From: Clostridia bacterium
Lineage (GTDB): Bacteria > Bacillota_A > Clostridia > Christensenellales > Borkfalkiaceae
DNA length: 8,625 bases
Reading direction: 5' to 3'
Assembly (NCBI GenBank): GCA_017399665.1
Contig: JAFQBR010000124.1
Span: 1-8,625 of the forward strand
A program made the position numbers and the translations under genes. The notes under the pieces were generated by a model. The model saw only the letters and a list, made by a program, of their open reading frames with translations, was not told the DNA's origin and did no database searches. Positions 1,584 through 7,062 of this stretch are shown in pieces. Numbering within the stretch: the first letter of the stretch is position 1; the number at the start of each line of letters is the position of its first letter.

Positions 1584-1587
1584 TTAA

Positions 1588-1612
1588 ATAAAAAAAGCCT
1601 GTTTTTGCAGGC
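1588..1612 (-). terminator. Intrinsic terminator, minus strand
   Basis: GCCTG (1597-1601) pairs with CAGGC (1608-1612) around a six-base loop. Read on the minus strand, the stem is followed by a run of seven Ts, while the + strand side has no T-run. It therefore acts as a second stop for the PHP-gene transcript, behind the hairpin at 1627-1672. Confidence 0.6.
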
Positions 1613-1626
1613 CTTAGCAAAATAAT

Positions 1627-1672
1627 AAAAACCGCGAAAGGTGCGTTAATCGACCTATATCGCGGTTTTTTT
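1627..1672. terminator. Bidirectional terminator hairpin, core element E1
   Basis: AAAAACCGCG (1627-1636) pairs with CGCGGTTTTT (1661-1670), and T-runs follow on both strands. It can end both the acyltransferase transcript (+) and the PHP transcript (-). The large loop carries the 13-base core TAATCGACCTATA (1647-1659), and AGGT/ACCT (1639-1642/1653-1656) can pair inside it. Bases 1624-1671 match element E2 at 2828-2875 with three mismatches. Confidence 0.8.
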
Positions 1673-1679
1673 ATTTATT

Positions 1680-2708
1680 TTATTTCAAATCTTCAACAAA
1701 ATATGCGTTAGTGTAAGCGTGTTTACCGTATTTGTCTGTTACGGTTATGCGTACGTATAAATCATTGTCTTGAACGCTAAACTCTGCGCTGGTTATTCCT
1801 TCTTCACTTTCTGCATAACAAACTTCCGTTCTTCTGTGTCCCGTTACAAGAGCAATTTTATTTGCGCTAGAGCAAGCGATATGAATTTTTCCGTCTTCGT
1901 AGTAAAGGTCTAAAATTTCTGGACCTTCAGATGCGTAAAAATAACCCTTTGAAAGTGCGGTAGTAATTGCCGTATATTCAAGCTTTGGCGCTTTAATAAC
2001 TGTAAATCCAACACAAGCGTCGCTATATGGAGAAGTGCTTGGGTGAGAGTTGTGGTTATCGTCTGTTGCAATACAAAAATGCTTTTTGCCCGTGCGTAAA
2101 ATATCGTCGTAAACTCTTTCGTTATAGTCGTCGTATCCAGCAACAATACAGCTTCCGTTAATAATTTCCATTGCATCCATTTGATTATAATGTATGTAAT
2201 CAGAATAATCTTCAATTGACCAAGTGGGGTGGTTATAAGTTACAAAAAATCCATTTTCCCTTGCCGTTTTCATCATATCGTTTATACATTCCGGCGTGTA
2301 AGAGCGAACGTAGTCGGGTAGGTTTTCATCAAACTTTAACTGATCCCTAAACTTAGGTGCGTTGCCGAATAAGTACCATTGACGGTGATAGCAAACCTGC
2401 GTTAAATTATCTGGCTTTAAAGCAATAAGGCACATGTGGCAGGTTTTTATATCACTAAATGGCGTTGGTGTAGGTTTTGCTTGGTTAATTTCCATCTCGT
2501 AGCCGTGAAGGGCAAGGAAGTTTTCGTCGTCTAAATCGCTATGCGAAAGTAAAATATCGTGGTCTGTATATGCAATTACGGAATAGCCGTTTGCCTTATA
2601 TAAATTTTTTACTTCTTCGGGCGAAAGCTTGCCGTCTGAACAGGTTGTGTGACAGTGAAGATTAGCTTTGTAAAAGTTTCCGCTATTTGGCAATAAATAT
2701 TTTTTCAT
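1680..2708 (-). CDS. PHP-domain metal-dependent phosphoesterase
   Basis: A 342-residue stand-alone PHP protein, a family of metal-dependent hydrolases that cleave phosphomonoester or phosphodiester bonds. Metal-binding motifs appear in order: HxH at 18-20 followed by SDG (D25), TDHD at 48-51, GxE at 69-71 (E71), a candidate His at 91, NHP at 159-161 (H160) and DNH at 217-219. The full set suggests an active enzyme. Residues 250-342 form a beta-rich tail beyond the barrel. There is no signal peptide, so it is probably cytoplasmic. AAGGAGAG (2713-2720) precedes the ATG at good spacing, and a promoter lies at 2745-2773, so it is probably transcribed alone. Two hairpins follow the stop. The substrate cannot be read from the sequence; nucleotide, sugar-phosphate and histidinol-phosphate substrates are known in the family. 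Closest in style to the PHP_HisII/TrpH-like group. Confidence 0.85.
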   Translation of the reverse strand: MKKYLLPNSGNFYKANLHCHTTCSDGKLSPEEVKNLYKANGYSVIAYTDHDILLSHSDLDDENFLALHGYEMEINQAKPTPTPFSDIKTCHMCLIALKPDNLTQVCYHRQWYLFGNAPKFRDQLKFDENLPDYVRSYTPECINDMMKTARENGFFVTYNHPTWSIEDYSDYIHYNQMDAMEIINGSCIVAGYDDYNERVYDDILRTGKKHFCIATDDNHNSHPSTSPYSDACVGFTVIKAPKLEYTAITTALSKGYFYASEGPEILDLYYEDGKIHIACSSANKIALVTGHRRTEVCYAESEEGITSAEFSVQDNDLYVRITVTDKYGKHAYTNAYFVEDLK

Positions 2709-2744
2709 AATACTCTCCTTAGGTTAGCAGTTTTGCCGTATATA

Positions 2745-2773
2745 ATATTATCACAAATAAAAAAGATAATCAA
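2745..2773 (-). promoter_or_regulatory. Promoter of the PHP gene
   Basis: Read on the minus strand: -35 TTGATT (2768-2773), 17-base spacer, -10 TAATAT (2745-2750). Transcription would begin near 2738, giving a leader of about 30 bases that includes the AAGGAGAG ribosome site. Confidence 0.65.
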
Positions 2774-2830
2774 TAGTTATGTTAAAAAAGGTAAATTTTT
2801 GTTAAATAATTTTAGACTAGCTTAAAGAAT

Positions 2831-2875
2831 AAAAACCGCAAAAGGCGAGTTAATCGACCTATATCGCGGTTTTTT
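2831..2875. terminator. Bidirectional terminator hairpin, core element E2
   Basis: AAAAACCGC (2831-2839) pairs with GCGGTTTTT (2866-2874), and AGG/CCT can pair inside the loop. The core TAATCGACCTATA is at 2851-2863. On the minus strand it follows the CrtO-like gene and ends in a T-run. It overlaps that gene: the last codons and the TAG stop (2859-2861) lie inside the hairpin. Confidence 0.75.
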
Positions 2876-3416
2876 GTTTTTTATTTTGCTGTTTTTGCAG
2901 TAATTTAACAAGTCTTGGTCGGTTATATCGCTGAACTAAAACAAAGTAGCCGTCTATACAAGCGCTTATTAGTGAGGTTATAATAAAAACCCAAAGCGCG
3001 CCGAAAAAAAGATAGGCAACAATAGGTAAAAAGCTTAACAAAATAATAATTTCATGCACAATTTCTGCTTGGCAGGTTACTTTAATAATGTTTTCCAAAC
3101 TGTTTTTGCGTAAATCGTAGTTTTGTGGCGAGTAAGTTGGGGTATTACGCTTTAATTTTTTTATGTTTAGCGCAGAAAAAAGCTTTTCTTCCCACTTTTT
3201 AGGTTTAAACCATTTTTTAGTGTAATCAACGTTGTTTTTAAGTATTGCATTTACTGCATATCCTACTATAAGGCGCATAGCAAAATGATATAAAAAGGTT
3301 GCGCTAGTTATTAGCAAGCTTAAAAGCAAATCGCTTTCAGTCCATAAGTAAAAAGCAAGCAAAAAAATAAAGATTAGTCCTAAAAACAGGGTGACGTATT
3401 TCATTTTTTTAGCCAT
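2859..3416 (-). CDS. CrtO-like membrane acyltransferase family protein
   Basis: A 185-residue integral membrane protein with hydrophobic segments at about 8-25, 29-52, 122-141 and 143-161. Its layout recalls the glycosyl-4,4'-diaponeurosporenoate acyltransferase (CrtO) family, which acylates staphyloxanthin in Staphylococcus: a KKWFKPKKW block (67-75), an acidic/His stretch AEIVHE (117-122), and the family-like ending VQRYNRPRL (161-169) before a Lys/Gln-rich tail. I matched these from memory of the staphylococcal protein. No other carotenoid gene is in the window, so the real acceptor is probably something else, perhaps a glycolipid or cell-wall sugar. The start is supported by AAGGGGG (3431-3437), although the 14-base gap is long; an in-frame stop just upstream excludes an earlier start. 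It lies 45 bases after the regulator at 3462-3681 and may share its transcript. The stop codon sits inside the terminator. Confidence 0.65.
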   Translation of the reverse strand: MAKKMKYVTLFLGLIFIFLLAFYLWTESDLLLSLLITSATFLYHFAMRLIVGYAVNAILKNNVDYTKKWFKPKKWEEKLFSALNIKKLKRNTPTYSPQNYDLRKNSLENIIKVTCQAEIVHEIIILLSFLPIVAYLFFGALWVFIITSLISACIDGYFVLVQRYNRPRLVKLLQKQQNKKQKTAI

Positions 3417-3444
3417 TTTTGTTAATTATTCCCCCTTTTTTATA

Positions 3445-3475
3445 GTTTAATCGGGTTTTGTTTAATCGTTTAATC
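3445..3475. repeat. Three direct copies of GTTTAATC
   Basis: GTTTAATC occurs at 3445-3452, 3460-3467 and 3468-3475, the last two head to tail. They fall between the CrtO-like gene and the regulator, overlapping the regulator's out-of-frame tail. They could be a direct-repeat binding site for the CrtO-like gene or chance in AT-rich DNA. Confidence 0.35.
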
Positions 3476-3498
3476 CAGCAAAATAATCAACTGAAACT
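3462..3498 (-). other. Out-of-frame C-terminal tail of the XRE regulator
   Basis: In the frame one base ahead of the regulator, the minus strand reads EVSVDYFAGLND and then TAA (3462-3464). This is what XRE proteins usually have at this point (compare the common xVSxDYLLG ending). Its intact coding sense argues that the shift is recent, an assembly error, or bypassed during translation. Confidence 0.65.
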
Positions 3499-3681
3499 TC
3501 AAAAAATTTGAGCCCGAGCAATCAAGTTAGAAAGGGTAGGCTCTCTTAACCCATTTTCCCAAAGGCTTATTATACCTTTGCTAACACCTAACTGTTTTGC
3601 AAGCGCAATTTGTCCAATTTCCTTTTCTAAACGCAGTTGCTTTAATCTTTCAGAAAATTTATTTATGATTTTCATTCCCAT
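3499..3681 (-). CDS. XRE-family helix-turn-helix regulator, frameshifted near its end
   Basis: A 60-residue DNA-binding protein made almost only of a Cro/C1-type HTH: QIALAKQLGVSKGIISLWEN at residues 23-42 is the turn and recognition helix, and REPTLSNL follows as in the family. The fifth helix is cut by a TGA directly after AQIF. If one T of the six-T run (3501-3506) is skipped, reading continues in the family's usual style as EVSVDYFAGLND and stops at 3462-3464, for about 73 residues. This could be a real mutation, a homopolymer error, or +1 slippage on TTT-TGA. No ribosome site precedes the ATG at 3681 or the Met two codons later. Upstream are a -10 box and two matching dyads (3720-3765), so it probably represses itself and the divergent transcript. 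It may be cotranscribed with the CrtO-like gene. Confidence 0.75.
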   Translation of the reverse strand: MGMKIINKFSERLKQLRLEKEIGQIALAKQLGVSKGIISLWENGLREPTLSNLIARAQIF

Positions 3682-3715
3682 ATTTATTTTGGCAGGCTAG
3701 CCTTTTAATGTGTCA

Positions 3716-3721
3716 ATTATC
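3716..3721 (-). promoter_or_regulatory. -10 box of the XRE gene
   Basis: The minus strand reads GATAAT directly after the dyad at 3720-3735. No good -35 lies 16-18 bases upstream. Transcription would start near 3709, about 27 bases before the ATG. TTGACA at 3711-3716 is an alternative -35, but no good -10 follows it. Confidence 0.4.
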
Positions 3722-3735
3722 TCACAAAAGTAAGA
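3720..3735. promoter_or_regulatory. Operator 1, 16-bp dyad
   Basis: TCTCAC-N4-GTAAGA is a palindrome with a single mismatch. It directly abuts the minus-strand GATAAT box, so a bound repressor would block the XRE promoter. Probable binding site of the adjacent XRE protein. Confidence 0.65.
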
Positions 3736-3743
3736 AATAATAC

Positions 3744-3772
3744 TTAATTTCTCACAATAGTAAGAGTATAAT
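3744..3772 (+). promoter_or_regulatory. Promoter of the short divergent transcript
   Basis: A perfect -10 TATAAT (3767-3772) has a weak -35 TTAATT (3744-3749) 17 bases upstream. Operator 2 fills the spacer. Transcription would start near 3779, at the foot of a small hairpin, CTTGC-tctg-GCAAG (3781-3794). Confidence 0.55.
3750..3765. promoter_or_regulatory. Operator 2, 16-bp dyad
   Basis: Same TCTCAC-N4-GTAAGA dyad as operator 1, differing only in the N4 centre (AATA against AAAA). The two lie exactly 30 bp apart, about three helical turns. It ends one base before the + strand TATAAT box, mirroring operator 1 at the opposite promoter. Confidence 0.65.
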
Positions 3773-3819
3773 AATAACATCTTGCTCTGGCAAGAATAAA
3801 ATAAGGGAGATAAGATAAA

Positions 3820-3888
3820 ATGAAACAAAAATCACGCAAAACAAGCGTGATTTTTTGTTGTTTAAAATATCTTGTAACAAGTTGTTAA
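3820..3888 (+). CDS. Possible 22-residue peptide with an internal terminator
   Basis: A 22-codon frame opens behind AAGGGAG (3803-3809), ten bases before the ATG. It begins MKQKSRKTSVIF, basic at first and then hydrophobic with three cysteines, and ends at TAA 3886-3888. The terminator hairpin lies inside it, so most transcripts would end near codon 12 without a stop codon. It overlaps the last codon of ldhA on the other strand by a few bases. I recognise no family. It may be a true small peptide, the leftover 5' end of a lost gene, or an accidental frame beside a regulatory RNA. Confidence 0.25.
   Translation: MKQKSRKTSVIFCCLKYLVTSC
3827..3856. terminator. Bidirectional terminator after ldhA
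   Basis: AAAAATCACGC (3827-3837) pairs perfectly with GCGTGATTTTT (3845-3855) around a seven-base A-rich loop. T-runs follow on both strands, so it ends both ldhA (minus) and the short divergent transcript (+). Confidence 0.85.
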
Positions 3889-4919
3889 AAACACTTGCCG
3901 GTTTTGCAGTCAGTTGCTGTACCGCCTTTAAAGCAAACCTCATTAGGGCATTGACCGCTGTTTTCTATATCGCAAATATTTTGTACCGTTGTTTGGGCAA
4001 TGTTTGCAAGCGCCTCTTCTGTTAAAAAGGCTTGGTGAGAGGTAACTATAACGTTTGGCATAGAGATAAGTCTTGCCAAAGTATCATCTTCCATAATATG
4101 TCCAGAAAGGTCTTCAAAGAAAAAGTCAGACTCTTCTTCGTAAACGTCCAAACAAGCACCGCCAACCTTGCGTTCCTTAATTGCGTTAAGCAATGCCTCT
4201 GAATCTACAAGCGCGCCCCTAGATGTGTTTAGAATAATTACACCTTTTTTGCATTTAGCCAAGGATTTTTCGTTAATAACGTGCTTTGTTTCTTCCGTTA
4301 GTGGGCAATGCAAAGAAATTACGTCGCTGTTTTTAAACAGGGTATCAAGATCAACGTAAGTAACCTTTTCGCCGTCTGCAACCGCAGGGTTTGGAAATTT
4401 ATCGTAAGCCAAAACTTTCATGCCAAAGCCCTTGCAAATATTAATAAACACTTGGCCAATTCGCCCTGTACCAATAACGCCAACAGTTTTGCCGTAAAGG
4501 TCAAAGCCCGTCATGTTGGCAAGGCTAAAGTTAAAATCGCGCGTGCGAATGTATGCCTTGTGAATTCTTCTAATAGAGGTAAGAAGTAGCGCCATAGTAT
4601 GTTCTGCAACCGCGTACGGAGAATATGCTGGCACTCTTACAACGTGTACTTTGCCAAGCGCGTGCTTTACGTCCACGTTATTAAAGCCAGCGCATCTAAG
4701 CGCAATAATGTTAACACCGAATTCTTGCAATCTATCAATAACGGTTGCGTTTATGCTGTCGTTAACAAAAACGCAAACACAGTTATAACCCTTTGCCAAA
4801 TAAACGGTGTCTTCGGTTAGTTTCGTTTCGAAATATTTAACGGTAAAGCCCTTTTCCTTAACGTATTTATCAAATGAAGCTTTATCGTAATTTTTAGCGT
4901 CAAAAAATGCTATTTTCAT
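3885..4919 (-). CDS. ldhA: D-lactate dehydrogenase (NAD-dependent)
   Basis: Reduces pyruvate to D-lactate with NADH, a fermentative step in the cytoplasm that regenerates NAD. The 344-residue protein follows the D-2-hydroxyacid dehydrogenase plan. RCAGFNNVD (75-83) and VPAYSPYAVAEH (96-107) are typical of the LdhA branch. The NAD-binding motif is GxGxxG at 150-155 with D173 closing the second strand, which indicates NAD preference. Catalytic residues are R234 (in NTSRGALVD), E263 and H295 (in SHQAF). E. coli LdhA is 329 residues and ends soon after CPNE; here CPNE (324-327) continues into a tail with cysteines at 324, 329, 338 and 343. AAGGAGT (4927-4933) gives a good start. A dyad at 4934-4964 sits just before the ribosome site. 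No terminator with a T-run separates ygiQ from this gene, so partial read-through is possible. Confidence 0.93.
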   Translation of the reverse strand: MKIAFFDAKNYDKASFDKYVKEKGFTVKYFETKLTEDTVYLAKGYNCVCVFVNDSINATVIDRLQEFGVNIIALRCAGFNNVDVKHALGKVHVVRVPAYSPYAVAEHTMALLLTSIRRIHKAYIRTRDFNFSLANMTGFDLYGKTVGVIGTGRIGQVFINICKGFGMKVLAYDKFPNPAVADGEKVTYVDLDTLFKNSDVISLHCPLTEETKHVINEKSLAKCKKGVIILNTSRGALVDSEALLNAIKERKVGGACLDVYEEESDFFFEDLSGHIMEDDTLARLISMPNVIVTSHQAFLTEEALANIAQTTVQNICDIENSGQCPNEVCFKGGTATDCKTGKCF

Positions 4920-4933
4920 AAAAAATACTCCTT

Positions 4934-4964
4934 GCTATTCACATATTTTAGTGTGCGCAATAGC
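4934..4964 (-). promoter_or_regulatory. Dyad or hairpin in the ldhA leader
   Basis: GCTATT (4934-4939) pairs with AATAGC (4959-4964), and CACA (4940-4943) with TGTG (4952-4955), around an eight-base loop and a three-base bulge. In the mRNA the structure ends one base before AAGGAGT. It could be an operator or an RNA hairpin that affects ribosome access. It does not fit a Rex site, whose half-sites have the opposite order (TTGTGA...TCACAA). Confidence 0.45.
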
Positions 4965-4981
4965 TTGTTTTTTATAACCTG

Positions 4982-5016
4982 AAAGTGGTGGTAATCGACT
5001 TATACGCCCACTTTTT
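4982..5016. repeat. Core hairpin element E3, 3' of ygiQ
   Basis: AAAGTGG (4982-4988) pairs with CCACTTT (5008-5014) around a loop holding the core TAATCGACTTATA (4992-5004). The T-run follows only on the + strand, so it is a poor terminator for the minus-strand ygiQ transcript it follows. The stem sequence is unrelated to that of E1 and E2 while the core is kept. Confidence 0.65.
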
Positions 5017-5018
5017 AA

Positions 5019-6935
5019 CTATTTTGAGGATTTTTTAAAAGGTTTTTTGCCTTGTTTTGGCTTAGAAAAAGGCGCGGTTGTTTTTTTGCCTTTTGTTCCC
5101 GTCTTTGTAAAGGCGGACGGAGCGGATTGCTGGGTGGAAGAAAAATCTTCTACTAGGCAGTTTTTGCCCTTACCAATAAGGTCGTATCTGCCAGCCTTTT
5201 TTAATGCGGAAAGTACAAGCTTTCTGTTTTCTGGGCGGAAGTATTGAAGCAACGCGCGTTGCTCGGCCTTTTCTTCTGCCGTTTTAGGAACGTATACCTC
5301 TTCTAATGTATATGGGTCTAGACCGGTATAGAACATAGCGGTGGAAATTGTGCCGGGGGTGGGATAAAAATCTTGTACTTGCTCGGGGTGTAAGTTTTCG
5401 CTTTTTAAAAATAGCGCAAGCTCTATCGCGTCGTTGACGGTACTACCGGGGTGGGAGGACATAAGGTAGGGCACTAAGTATTGCTTTTTATTAACTTGAG
5501 CGGTAAGCTCGTAAAAGCGTTTTTTAAAGGCGTTGTATACCGAAAGGTTGGGTTTTCCCATTCTTTTTAAAACGTTATCAGAGCAATGCTCGGGCGCAAC
5601 CTTTAACTGACCGCTAACGTGGTGCTCGACAAGCTCTTTAAAAAAGCTTTGGTCTTTATCGGCAATAAGGTAGTCAAATCTTATACCCGAACGGATAAAT
5701 ACCTTTTTAACCTTTGGTAACTTGCGAAGCTTTCTTAAAAGATCTAAATAATCGCTGTGGTCAACCTTTAAAGCTGGGCAAGGGGTTGGAGCAAGACACT
5801 TTTTATCTGCGCACATTCCCTTATTTTTTTGGCCTGCGCAAGAGGGGGCGCGGAAGTTTGCAGTAGGTCCGCCAACGTCGTGAATATATCCTTTAAAGTC
5901 AGGCATATCGGTAATTTTTTTAGCCTCTTCAATTACAGACTCGTGACTTCTTACACTAATAACTCTACCTTGGTGATAAGCAAGCGAGCAAAAGTTGCAC
6001 GCGCCGTAGCAACCGCGGTTGTGAATAATAGAAAATTTAACCTCTTCAATGCCGGGCACTCCGCCAAGCGGTATATAAGAAGGATGAAAATCACGCATAA
6101 AGGGTAGGGCGTAAACCTCGTCCATTTCTTCCATAGTAAGTGGTGGGGTGGGCGGATTTTGTATAAGAATTTTATCGCCGTGGCGCTGAATTACCTTTTT
6201 ACCGCGAACGCTATCGTGCTCTTCTTGCTGAATACGGCAAGCCTTTGCATAATCCCTTTTACCCTCTTTTGTGTTTAGTGAAACCCTTTCAAAGGAGGGA
6301 CATTCCTTGCAAGGTCCAGCCTTATATTCGGTGGTCTTTACAGCATAGCAAGTACCTAAAATATCGGTAAGGTCTTTTATGTTTTCGCCTGCGTTTAATC
6401 TATCGGCAATTTCAACAACGTGCTTTTCCCCCATTCCGTACATTAAAAGGTCGGCAGTACAATCTAATAAAATAGATGGACGCACCTTATCATCCCAATA
6501 GTCGTAGTGCGCAAAACGGCGAAGAGAAGCTTCTAAACCGCCAATGGCAATGGCTACGTCGCCAAAATATTTACGTATATTTTTGCAGTATACAATGGTT
6601 GCTCTATCCGGTCTAGCGCCTGCTTTACCGCCGGGGGTATAGGCGTCGTCGCTTCTTTTTCTTTTTGCTGCGGTGTAATGCGCAACCATACTGTCTATAT
6701 TTCCGCCGTTAACTAAAAATGCAAGGCGGGGCTTACCAAATATTCGGTAATCTTCTTCACTTTTAGGCTGTGAAATTATGCACACCTTATAGCCTTTGCT
6801 TTCAAGCACTCTTGAAATAATAGCCGTGCCAAAAGAGGGGTGGTCTACGTAGGCATCCCCTGTAACAATAACAAAGTCAGGTCTATCCCAGCCCAGCTTT
6901 TGCATATCTTGTTTAGTAATTGGTAAAAACGGCAT
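5019..6935 (-). CDS. ygiQ: YgiQ-family radical SAM protein
   Basis: A 638-residue radical SAM protein of the YgiQ (UPF0313) family, whose reaction is not established as far as I know. The 4Fe-4S cluster motif CxxxCxxC is at C309, C313 and C316 (CYGACNFC) within the family's GxEEVKFSIIHNRGCYGACNFC-type context. The N-terminal part contains the conserved FVIVTGDAYVDHPSFGTAII (21-40), GKAGARPDR and IGGLEASLRRFAHYDYWDD stretches. Further on are DVGGPTANF, a cysteine cluster (CAGQKNKGMCADKKC), VAPEH and the DFYPTPGT block. About the last 35 residues are a Lys/Ser/Thr-rich disordered tail. The length is as expected. AGGAAGGT (6941-6948) precedes the ATG by five bases. A strong promoter at 7035-7062 gives a leader of about 90 bases containing element E4. 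It is followed by E3 and then ldhA. Confidence 0.93.
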   Translation of the reverse strand: MPFLPITKQDMQKLGWDRPDFVIVTGDAYVDHPSFGTAIISRVLESKGYKVCIISQPKSEEDYRIFGKPRLAFLVNGGNIDSMVAHYTAAKRKRSDDAYTPGGKAGARPDRATIVYCKNIRKYFGDVAIAIGGLEASLRRFAHYDYWDDKVRPSILLDCTADLLMYGMGEKHVVEIADRLNAGENIKDLTDILGTCYAVKTTEYKAGPCKECPSFERVSLNTKEGKRDYAKACRIQQEEHDSVRGKKVIQRHGDKILIQNPPTPPLTMEEMDEVYALPFMRDFHPSYIPLGGVPGIEEVKFSIIHNRGCYGACNFCSLAYHQGRVISVRSHESVIEEAKKITDMPDFKGYIHDVGGPTANFRAPSCAGQKNKGMCADKKCLAPTPCPALKVDHSDYLDLLRKLRKLPKVKKVFIRSGIRFDYLIADKDQSFFKELVEHHVSGQLKVAPEHCSDNVLKRMGKPNLSVYNAFKKRFYELTAQVNKKQYLVPYLMSSHPGSTVNDAIELALFLKSENLHPEQVQDFYPTPGTISTAMFYTGLDPYTLEEVYVPKTAEEKAEQRALLQYFRPENRKLVLSALKKAGRYDLIGKGKNCLVEDFSSTQQSAPSAFTKTGTKGKKTTAPFSKPKQGKKPFKKSSK

Positions 6936-6968
6936 AAAACACCTTCCTATAATTTTTTGCTATTGTAT

Positions 6969-7004
6969 AAAAGTGTGCCTATAAGTCGATTATCGGCAGT
7001 TTTT
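6969..7004. repeat. Core hairpin element E4, in the ygiQ leader
   Basis: The + strand core TATAAGTCGATTA (6980-6992) is inverted relative to E1-E3. TGCC (6976-6979) pairs with GGCA (6995-6998), and AAAA/TTTT can extend the stem past a mismatch. It lies inside the transcribed leader of ygiQ. Within it, minus-strand TCGACT is 16 bases from TACAAT, a possible second, weaker promoter. Confidence 0.6.
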
Positions 7005-7034
7005 GCTTTATATTTTGCGTTTTTCTACAATATA

Positions 7035-7062
7035 ATTATACTGTTTTGGCGTTTATTGTCAA
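7035..7062 (-). promoter_or_regulatory. Promoter of ygiQ
   Basis: The minus strand reads a perfect -35 TTGACA (7057-7062) and a perfect -10 TATAAT (7035-7040) with a 16-base spacer. Transcription would start near 7028. Confidence 0.8.

Follow-up and report, generated by a model that had tools for sequence, protein, structure and literature searches.

A 13-bp core within a helically phased flank: a candidate family of DNA gyrase sites at gene ends in a lineage of Clostridia

The window analysed here is the whole contig JAFQBR010000124.1, a stretch of 8,625 nt from a Clostridia bacterium (assembly GCA_017399665.1), and the element in question is a 13-bp core that occurs in it four times. The word TATARGTCGATTA or its complement was located at 1647-1659 (-), 2851-2863 (-), 4992-5004 (-) and 6980-6992 (+) with 0 mismatches, as the original prediction had observed, and four matches with up to 2 mismatches were reached in 0 of 200 dinucleotide shuffles of the window. 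The four copies belong to a repeat family that favours gene 3′ ends, sits in a symmetric composition wave of about 130-140 bp and is retained in place between two species. Judged from the sequence, the repeat marks DNA that is to be wrapped, with DNA gyrase as the most likely wrapping protein. We put at roughly 0.6 the probability that each copy is a strong gyrase site and that the family has been kept vertically; its membership among strong gyrase sites is provisional.

Repeat family and helical composition wave

Relatives of the window were located via its acyltransferase and then via its radical SAM protein, which we take to be YgiQ. The YgiQ-type protein had matches in 39 of 398 genomes of one family, six of them at 76-83% identity. 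Among these six closest genomes, the exact core was present in 118 copies in G258, 59 in G259 and 23 in G260, and in 0 copies in G063, G277 and G278; the reversed word, used as a control, was found 0 times in all six. When AAAAGTG was placed before the core and up to 3 mismatches were allowed, the counts were 215, 315 and 116 in the three carriers and 0, 0 and 1 in the three non-carriers (reversed control 0, 0 and 1, then 2, 0 and 0). No copies of the core were found in twelve more distant genomes. Across the 398 genomes an exact match was present in 43, with at least five copies in 24 and 1-3 copies in 19. Those with at least five were confined to three groups (G258-260, G335-349 and G396-402), and the reversed control gave at most 1 per strand in any genome listed.

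Counting the core genome-wide against shuffled sequence had been suggested as a check, and the expectation was exceeded in G258 and G259. A degenerate core, TATA[AG][GC][TGC]CGATTA with at most 1 mismatch, was counted in the fetched genome parts and in three Markov-1 shuffles. It occurred 250 times in 1.18 Mb of G258 (32, 26 and 29 in the shuffles), 126 times in 0.34 Mb of G259 (7, 13 and 13) and 4 times in 0.18 Mb of G063, a non-carrier of the family (3, 7 and 5). In G258 and G259 the shuffles yield roughly one site for every ten observed, and in G063 the two numbers are alike. Exact cores in the same parts numbered 73, 26 and 0, with 0-1 in the shuffles.

When GyrA from 20 genomes was placed in a tree, the 12 carriers grouped together with one non-carrier, G252, nested inside, and the core family therefore looks ancestral to one clade and lost in the G252 line. 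Viral carriage of the sites was rejected, as viral contigs had 0 exact matches to the extended pattern, and no relative of the YgiQ-type protein was found in them. The YgiQ-type proteins of G063, G277 and G278 (L083, L086 and L085) are 76-81% identical to that of the window, whereas their GyrA proteins are only about 63-66% identical to those of G258-260, which suggests that ygiQ was transferred between lineages. Some copies are unusual. Two sites in G259 (C4:3355 and 3456, L118) are 101 bp apart with near-identical flanks and are a probable local duplication. Two cores in opposite orientations overlap at L234:17276-17298 (G338) and form a near-perfect palindrome. Exact cores apparently lie in the coding sequence of homologous genes at two loci each (L111 and L113, L116 and L130), and these genes, judged by eye, are RNase R-like and tRNA-dihydrouridine-synthase-like.

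Around the core, G+C and A+T alternate in a symmetric, core-centred wave of about 11 bp. G+C peaks lie on both sides at about 9-10, 20-21, 30-32, 41-45, 53-55 and 62-67 bp; in G258 they are at 9, 20, 31, 42, 53 and 65 to the left and 10, 20, 32, 45, 55 and 65 to the right. Compared with random intergenic sets, the in-phase signal at 10.8 bp gave z of 10.2 at 16-38 bp, 8.5 at 38-60 bp, 7.6 at 49-71 bp and 3.4 at 60-82 bp, then -0.4 at 71-93 bp and -0.1 at 82-104 bp. The wave thus ends about 66-71 bp from the centre and has a total length of about 130-140 bp. The amplitude at 10.75 bp was reached by size-matched random intergenic sets in 0 of 1000 draws for both G258 and G259, in 25 of 1000 for G338 (25 sites) and in 1 of 1000 for G396 (14 sites). 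When the two flanks were fitted jointly, the best period was 11.85-12.1 bp in G258, G259 and G338, with opposite phase, and 10.45 bp in G396. Because single flanks gave periods of 10.45-11.6 bp (11.2-12.2 bp in a smaller first fit), the 12-bp period was attributed to aliasing in a fit across two separate flanks and was rejected.

The flanks conserve base class and hardly letters. Flank chi2/df in G258 and G259 was 3.00 and 3.96 for strong versus weak bases, 1.23 and 1.36 for A versus T, and 1.13 and 1.00 for G versus C, and constraint of this kind argues against a copied repeat. A wave template was built from G258 and G259 and applied to the window, G338, G396 and G260 as held-out sequence. 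Window sites 1-4 reached percentiles 97.2, 99.7, 99.6 and 99.3 of window positions, and a local maximum lay within 1 bp of the core at 16 of 25 sites in G338, 12 of 14 in G396 and 3 of 4 in G260, where 3/11 is expected. Known cores in five carrier sets had a median percentile of 0.82-0.91 under the flank template. A search of the non-carrier G063 for an alternative core, made with the flank template, gave nothing convincing, and the same template also failed to single out the cores in carriers.

The original prediction had described a loop that is kept while its paired arms change. Aligned copies approximate AAAAGYSSSC-TATARSKCGATTA-WCGGCWWTTT, and the arms pair about as well when swapped between copies. 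The 191 copies of G258 had 4.70 Watson-Crick pairs of 11 against 4.54 with shuffled arms (reached by 34 of 1000 shuffles), and the 101 copies of G259 had 4.95 against 4.87 (216 of 1000); a smaller first set of copies agreed. These counts, and the gap and strand counts given below for G258 and G259, leave out duplicates, sites close to stretch ends and those lying well inside ORFs (57 of 250 in G258, 24 of 126 in G259). Since a left arm hardly fits its own right arm best, the family as a whole is not a paired-arm element, and a hairpin or RNA element was rejected on the arm shuffling in G258 and G259. Pairing of the arms, for which covariation had been suggested as a check, is seen in the window copies and is not general to the family. 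The share of native copies that fold below -10 kcal/mol was 28% in G258 (18% for swapped halves, p 0.0017) and 25% in G259 (17% for swapped halves, p 0.063). A hairpin therefore overlies a minority of sites, and window copies 1 and 2 appear to be of that type.

Placement at gene ends and retention between species

Sites in G258 numbered 48 for 75 convergent gaps, 119 for 365 tandem gaps and 11 for 91 divergent gaps, and those in G259 numbered 22 for 23, 74 for 147 and 3 for 24, where gaps are those of at least 35 bases and the numerators count sites, possibly in shorter gaps or several per gap. The smaller sets had 9, 14 and 0 (G338) and 3, 6 and 2 (G396) in convergent, tandem and divergent gaps. 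Site placement roughly tracks the number of 3′ ends, as would be expected if the sites meet positive supercoils, but also for any element that avoids promoters. Window site 4, in a divergent gap, is an exception. The distance from stop codon to site centre in tandem gaps had a median of 23 bases over 50 sites in G258 and of 40.5 over 72 sites in G259. Either orientation was used, with 64 sites along and 55 against transcription in G258 and 30 and 44 in G259. The last gene before a site was slightly longer (p 0.009, uncorrected for the other tests). No regular spacing was found, the coefficient of variation being 0.99 compared with 1.14 for random gaps.

Retention was examined in the fetched parts of G258 and G259, which share 136 reciprocal best hits (median identity 63%) and 66 adjacent orthologous pairs. 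A site was present in both species at 7 of the 66 junctions, in G259 only at 4, in G258 only at 2 and in neither at 53 (Fisher p 1.3e-5). At junctions with gaps of at least 25 bases the numbers were 7 in both, 2 and 2 in one only and 25 in neither (p 1.4e-4). Orientation matched at 6 of the 7 shared junctions, and the paired sites, where compared by eye, look largely unlike outside the core. Downstream of the YgiQ-type gene, the window, G258 (L081:3405) and G259 (L082:1372) all have a site, identically oriented; no site was found after this gene in G260, G063, G277 or G278.

With the core kept, the letters outside it nearly free and the place retained between species, a conserved signal that is not simple copying, as had been proposed, is borne out, although the arm pairing and the particular roles attached to it are not.

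Gyrase and other wrapping proteins

The E. coli gyrase motif is 130 bp long and symmetric about the cut, with flanks at -63 to -17 and 20 to 66 whose 10.75-bp GC wave is ascribed to the DNA being wrapped around the C-terminal domains of GyrA (PMC6379681); the length and its wrapping meaning are restated in PMC12393610. A GC periodicity of 10-11 bp over 120 bp is reported for all gyrases studied in PMC12324340, as far as the cited part of that source goes. The family described here has a symmetric wave of about 10.75 bp in two flanks, and its total length agrees with that of the motif. We propose that the DNA gate would hold the core, TATA-R-SKCG-ATTA, and that gyrase would make its staggered cut of 4 bases there, with SKCG as the predicted position. 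On each side, about 45-50 bp with A/T and G/C blocks recurring every helical turn would wrap around the two GyrA C-terminal pinwheels. Most sites lie directly after genes, where positive supercoils would accumulate during transcription, and gyrase could dock there and act at fixed places.

At the gate, preferences for -2A/+6T and -4G/+8C are reported for all enzymes studied (PMC12324340). Pneumococcal enzymes prefer -4G, -2A and -1T/+5A, the gyrase also -3T, and the -4G/+8C preference covers both gyrase and topoisomerase IV (PMC3814380). We assumed a dyad between core positions 7 and 8, which was picked to suit the published -2A/+6T preference. With this dyad, nearly all copies have A at core position 4 (-2) and T at core position 11 (+6), partly by construction, as sites were gathered with at most 1 mismatch to the core; -3T and +5A are also present.

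Several results weigh against gyrase. The -4G/+8C preference is not followed, both positions being A, and the base at -1 is R, whereas pneumococcal gyrase prefers T there; the pneumococcal preference for -4G and -1T lowers our confidence both in gyrase and in the stronger proposal made below. For G258 the best mirror axis is at core position 7.0 and for G259 at 6.5 rather than at 7.5, and taken alone the axis permits a dyad at 6.5-7.5. The core is also tighter than the gyrase preferences given in the cited parts of these papers. Single-flank periods spread over the range given above, and the flank-only template without the core placed 2 of its 100 top scorers at a core in G258 and likewise in G259, which is the base rate. 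Phage Mu, whose record annotates a gyrase cut at 17879/17880, served as a control and was mixed: the flank-only template had a local maximum at 17881, the expected dyad, but with rank 2850 of 36586, and the whole template ranked it 3660, with a version shifted by 5 bp in phase doing better at 1424. The stretch GIAVGMAT, which holds the wedge isoleucine of GyrA, is unchanged in 20 of 20 GyrAs, despite the absence of -4G/+8C. The directons upstream of sites are not longer (p 0.16). Finally, the GyrA C-terminal repeats, matched in 36 of 36 genomes and above the curated cut-off in 35, are alike in carriers and non-carriers.

The catalytic tyrosine of GyrA lies in AAYRYTE in 12 of 12 carriers (L325-L336) and in four non-carriers, and in AAMRYTE in G063, G277, G278 and G018. 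Residues separating carriers from non-carriers came down to one column in a comparison of 12 with 8 related genomes, which was too weak to be used.

Another protein may wrap or bend the DNA, such as an unknown nucleoid protein with a specific core, HU with a partner, or topoisomerase IV, and to this we give a real but minor chance. It would suit a core more specific than the published preferences in the parts cited, GyrA repeats that do not distinguish carriers, and the two matches to PF00521 (gyrA/parC-type genes) in each of 20 genomes. On the other hand, the symmetric wave stops at about 66-71 bp, near the reported gyrase length, and a complete wrap of DNA is reported to be lacking for topoisomerase IV (PMC12324340, as cited in part). 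Lrp/AsnC had a match in 0 of 12 carriers and archaeal-type histones in 0 of 20 genomes, with HU not searched for, and Lrp and archaeal-type histones were rejected as wrappers.

Readings without a wrapping protein fare worse, among them the three roles named by the original prediction. Spread by a transposase, as a mobile palindrome of the REP or MITE kind, would account for the high copy number, the mostly intergenic position, both orientations, the AAAAGTG/CACTTTT ends seen in a number of copies and the probable duplicate in G259. It is very improbable, however, given arms that pair about equally when swapped, flanks that share base class over letters, and sites that recur at syntenic junctions, mostly in the same orientation. 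Y1 transposase matches were found in 6 of 15 carriers and not in the other 9, and also in 7 of 21 non-carriers, which disfavours mobilisation by RAYT. A transcription terminator, or a protein-bound RNA motif at transcript ends, agrees with sites placed after stop codons, with native copies folding slightly better than swapped halves, and with terminator-like window copies 1 and 2. We consider it very improbable, as the strand is near random with respect to transcription, pairing is not general and RNA has no need of a helical wave of about 130 bp. An uptake word as in Neisseria or Pasteurellaceae, though it would explain why a word recurs many times in a clade, is scarcely credible: uptake words are not known to have a long symmetric wave or a 3′-end bias, and their densities are higher than the approximately 0.2 per kb found here (250 in 1.18 Mb of G258).

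We return to gyrase as the preferred wrapping protein. A stronger proposal, to which we give slightly less than an even chance, is that in this lineage gyrase came to have a recognition sequence in the strict sense. It would consist of an almost invariant 13-bp core at the gate and a phased 130-bp wrap, kept by selection at hundreds of gene 3′ ends, such that supercoiling would be set by a docking map encoded in the genome and not by transcription alone. In the cited parts of the literature the gyrase motif is long and degenerate, and named strong sites are few. If a clade has scores to hundreds of sites that are specified by sequence and stand at fixed gene ends, genome-encoded gyrase placement and its effect on supercoiling would become testable, a natural set of optimal wrapping sequences would be at hand, and quinolone cut sites could be predicted in bacteria known only from metagenomes. 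The exact string TATAAGTCGATTA had no occurrence in the open-licence literature searched, and no report of a gyrase-site family of this kind was recognised there, although some queries were loosely worded and absence is unproven. A survey of palindromic repeats covered three Bacillota species, none evidently of this group (PMC12306157, in the part cited).

Window sites and comparison with known systems

The four window sites were assigned predicted wrapped footprints of core centre ±66, a length taken from the relatives. Site 1 (TATAGGTCGATTA, 1647..1659, - strand; footprint 1587..1719) lies between two convergent genes, with its local template maximum 1 base off the core centre. It overlaps a hairpin, CCGCG/CGCGG with A and T runs at its sides (1632..1665), read from the sequence, which is plausibly a terminator superimposed on the site. 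Site 2 (also TATAGGTCGATTA, 2851..2863, - strand; footprint 2791..2923) is at the 3′ end of the CrtO-like gene, site 3 (TATAAGTCGATTA, 4992..5004, - strand; footprint 4932..5064) directly follows the YgiQ-type gene, and site 4 (also TATAAGTCGATTA, 6980..6992, + strand; footprint 6920..7052) is in the divergent gap upstream of that gene; at all three the maximum is at the core. The predicted 4-base cleavage overhang at site 4 is 6985..6988 (core positions 6-9), and a like register is predicted at sites 1-3. The cores had been described as always between genes. Cores 1, 3 and 4 do lie between the main ORFs, but the CrtO-like ORF (2859-3416, - strand) ends within core 2, which contains its TAG stop. 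Likewise, the stems that had been given hold for three copies (1, 3 and 4), and copy 2 has CCGCG opposite TGCGG, with one G-T pair.

By Pfam, the window genes encode an acyltransferase, a weak PHP domain, the CrtO-like acyltransferase, a helix-turn-helix (HTH) regulator, a D-2-hydroxyacid dehydrogenase, the YgiQ-type radical SAM protein and a weak TPR. Two similar words, CTCACAAAAGTAAGAA and CTCACAATAGTAAGAG, are present at 3721-3766 upstream of the small HTH gene and are possibly its operator. The hairpin AAAATCACGC...GCGTGATTTTTT at 3829-3858 is an ordinary terminator-like repeat. A single sub-threshold Rfam match, away from the sites, was taken as chance.

Nucleosome-positioning sequences have periodic AT/GC phasing for wrapping. 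The window family is like them in this phasing, and unlike them in its fixed central core, its length of about 130 bp and the lack of an archaeal-type histone match in 20 genomes. BIME-2/REP elements of Enterobacteria are described as transcription-independent strong gyrase sites (PMC6379681). The family resembles them in its many copies, mainly intergenic, at gene 3′ ends and in both orientations, and differs in having no family-wide paired arms, no consistent Y1 transposase, and flanks kept by base class over letters. The strong gyrase sites of phage Mu, pSC101 and pBR322 and the E. coli motif, as described in the cited part of PMC6379681, are closest in design: about 130 bp, symmetric, with a phased GC/AT wave near 10.75 bp and a central cut region, which in the window family is predicted. 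The gyrase sites of PMC12324340, in the part cited, also share its A at -2 and T at +6. Unlike these sites, the family is without -4G/+8C, and the Mu site scores moderately with our template. It also differs from the known strong sites in having scores to hundreds of chromosomal copies, built on an almost fixed 13-bp core.

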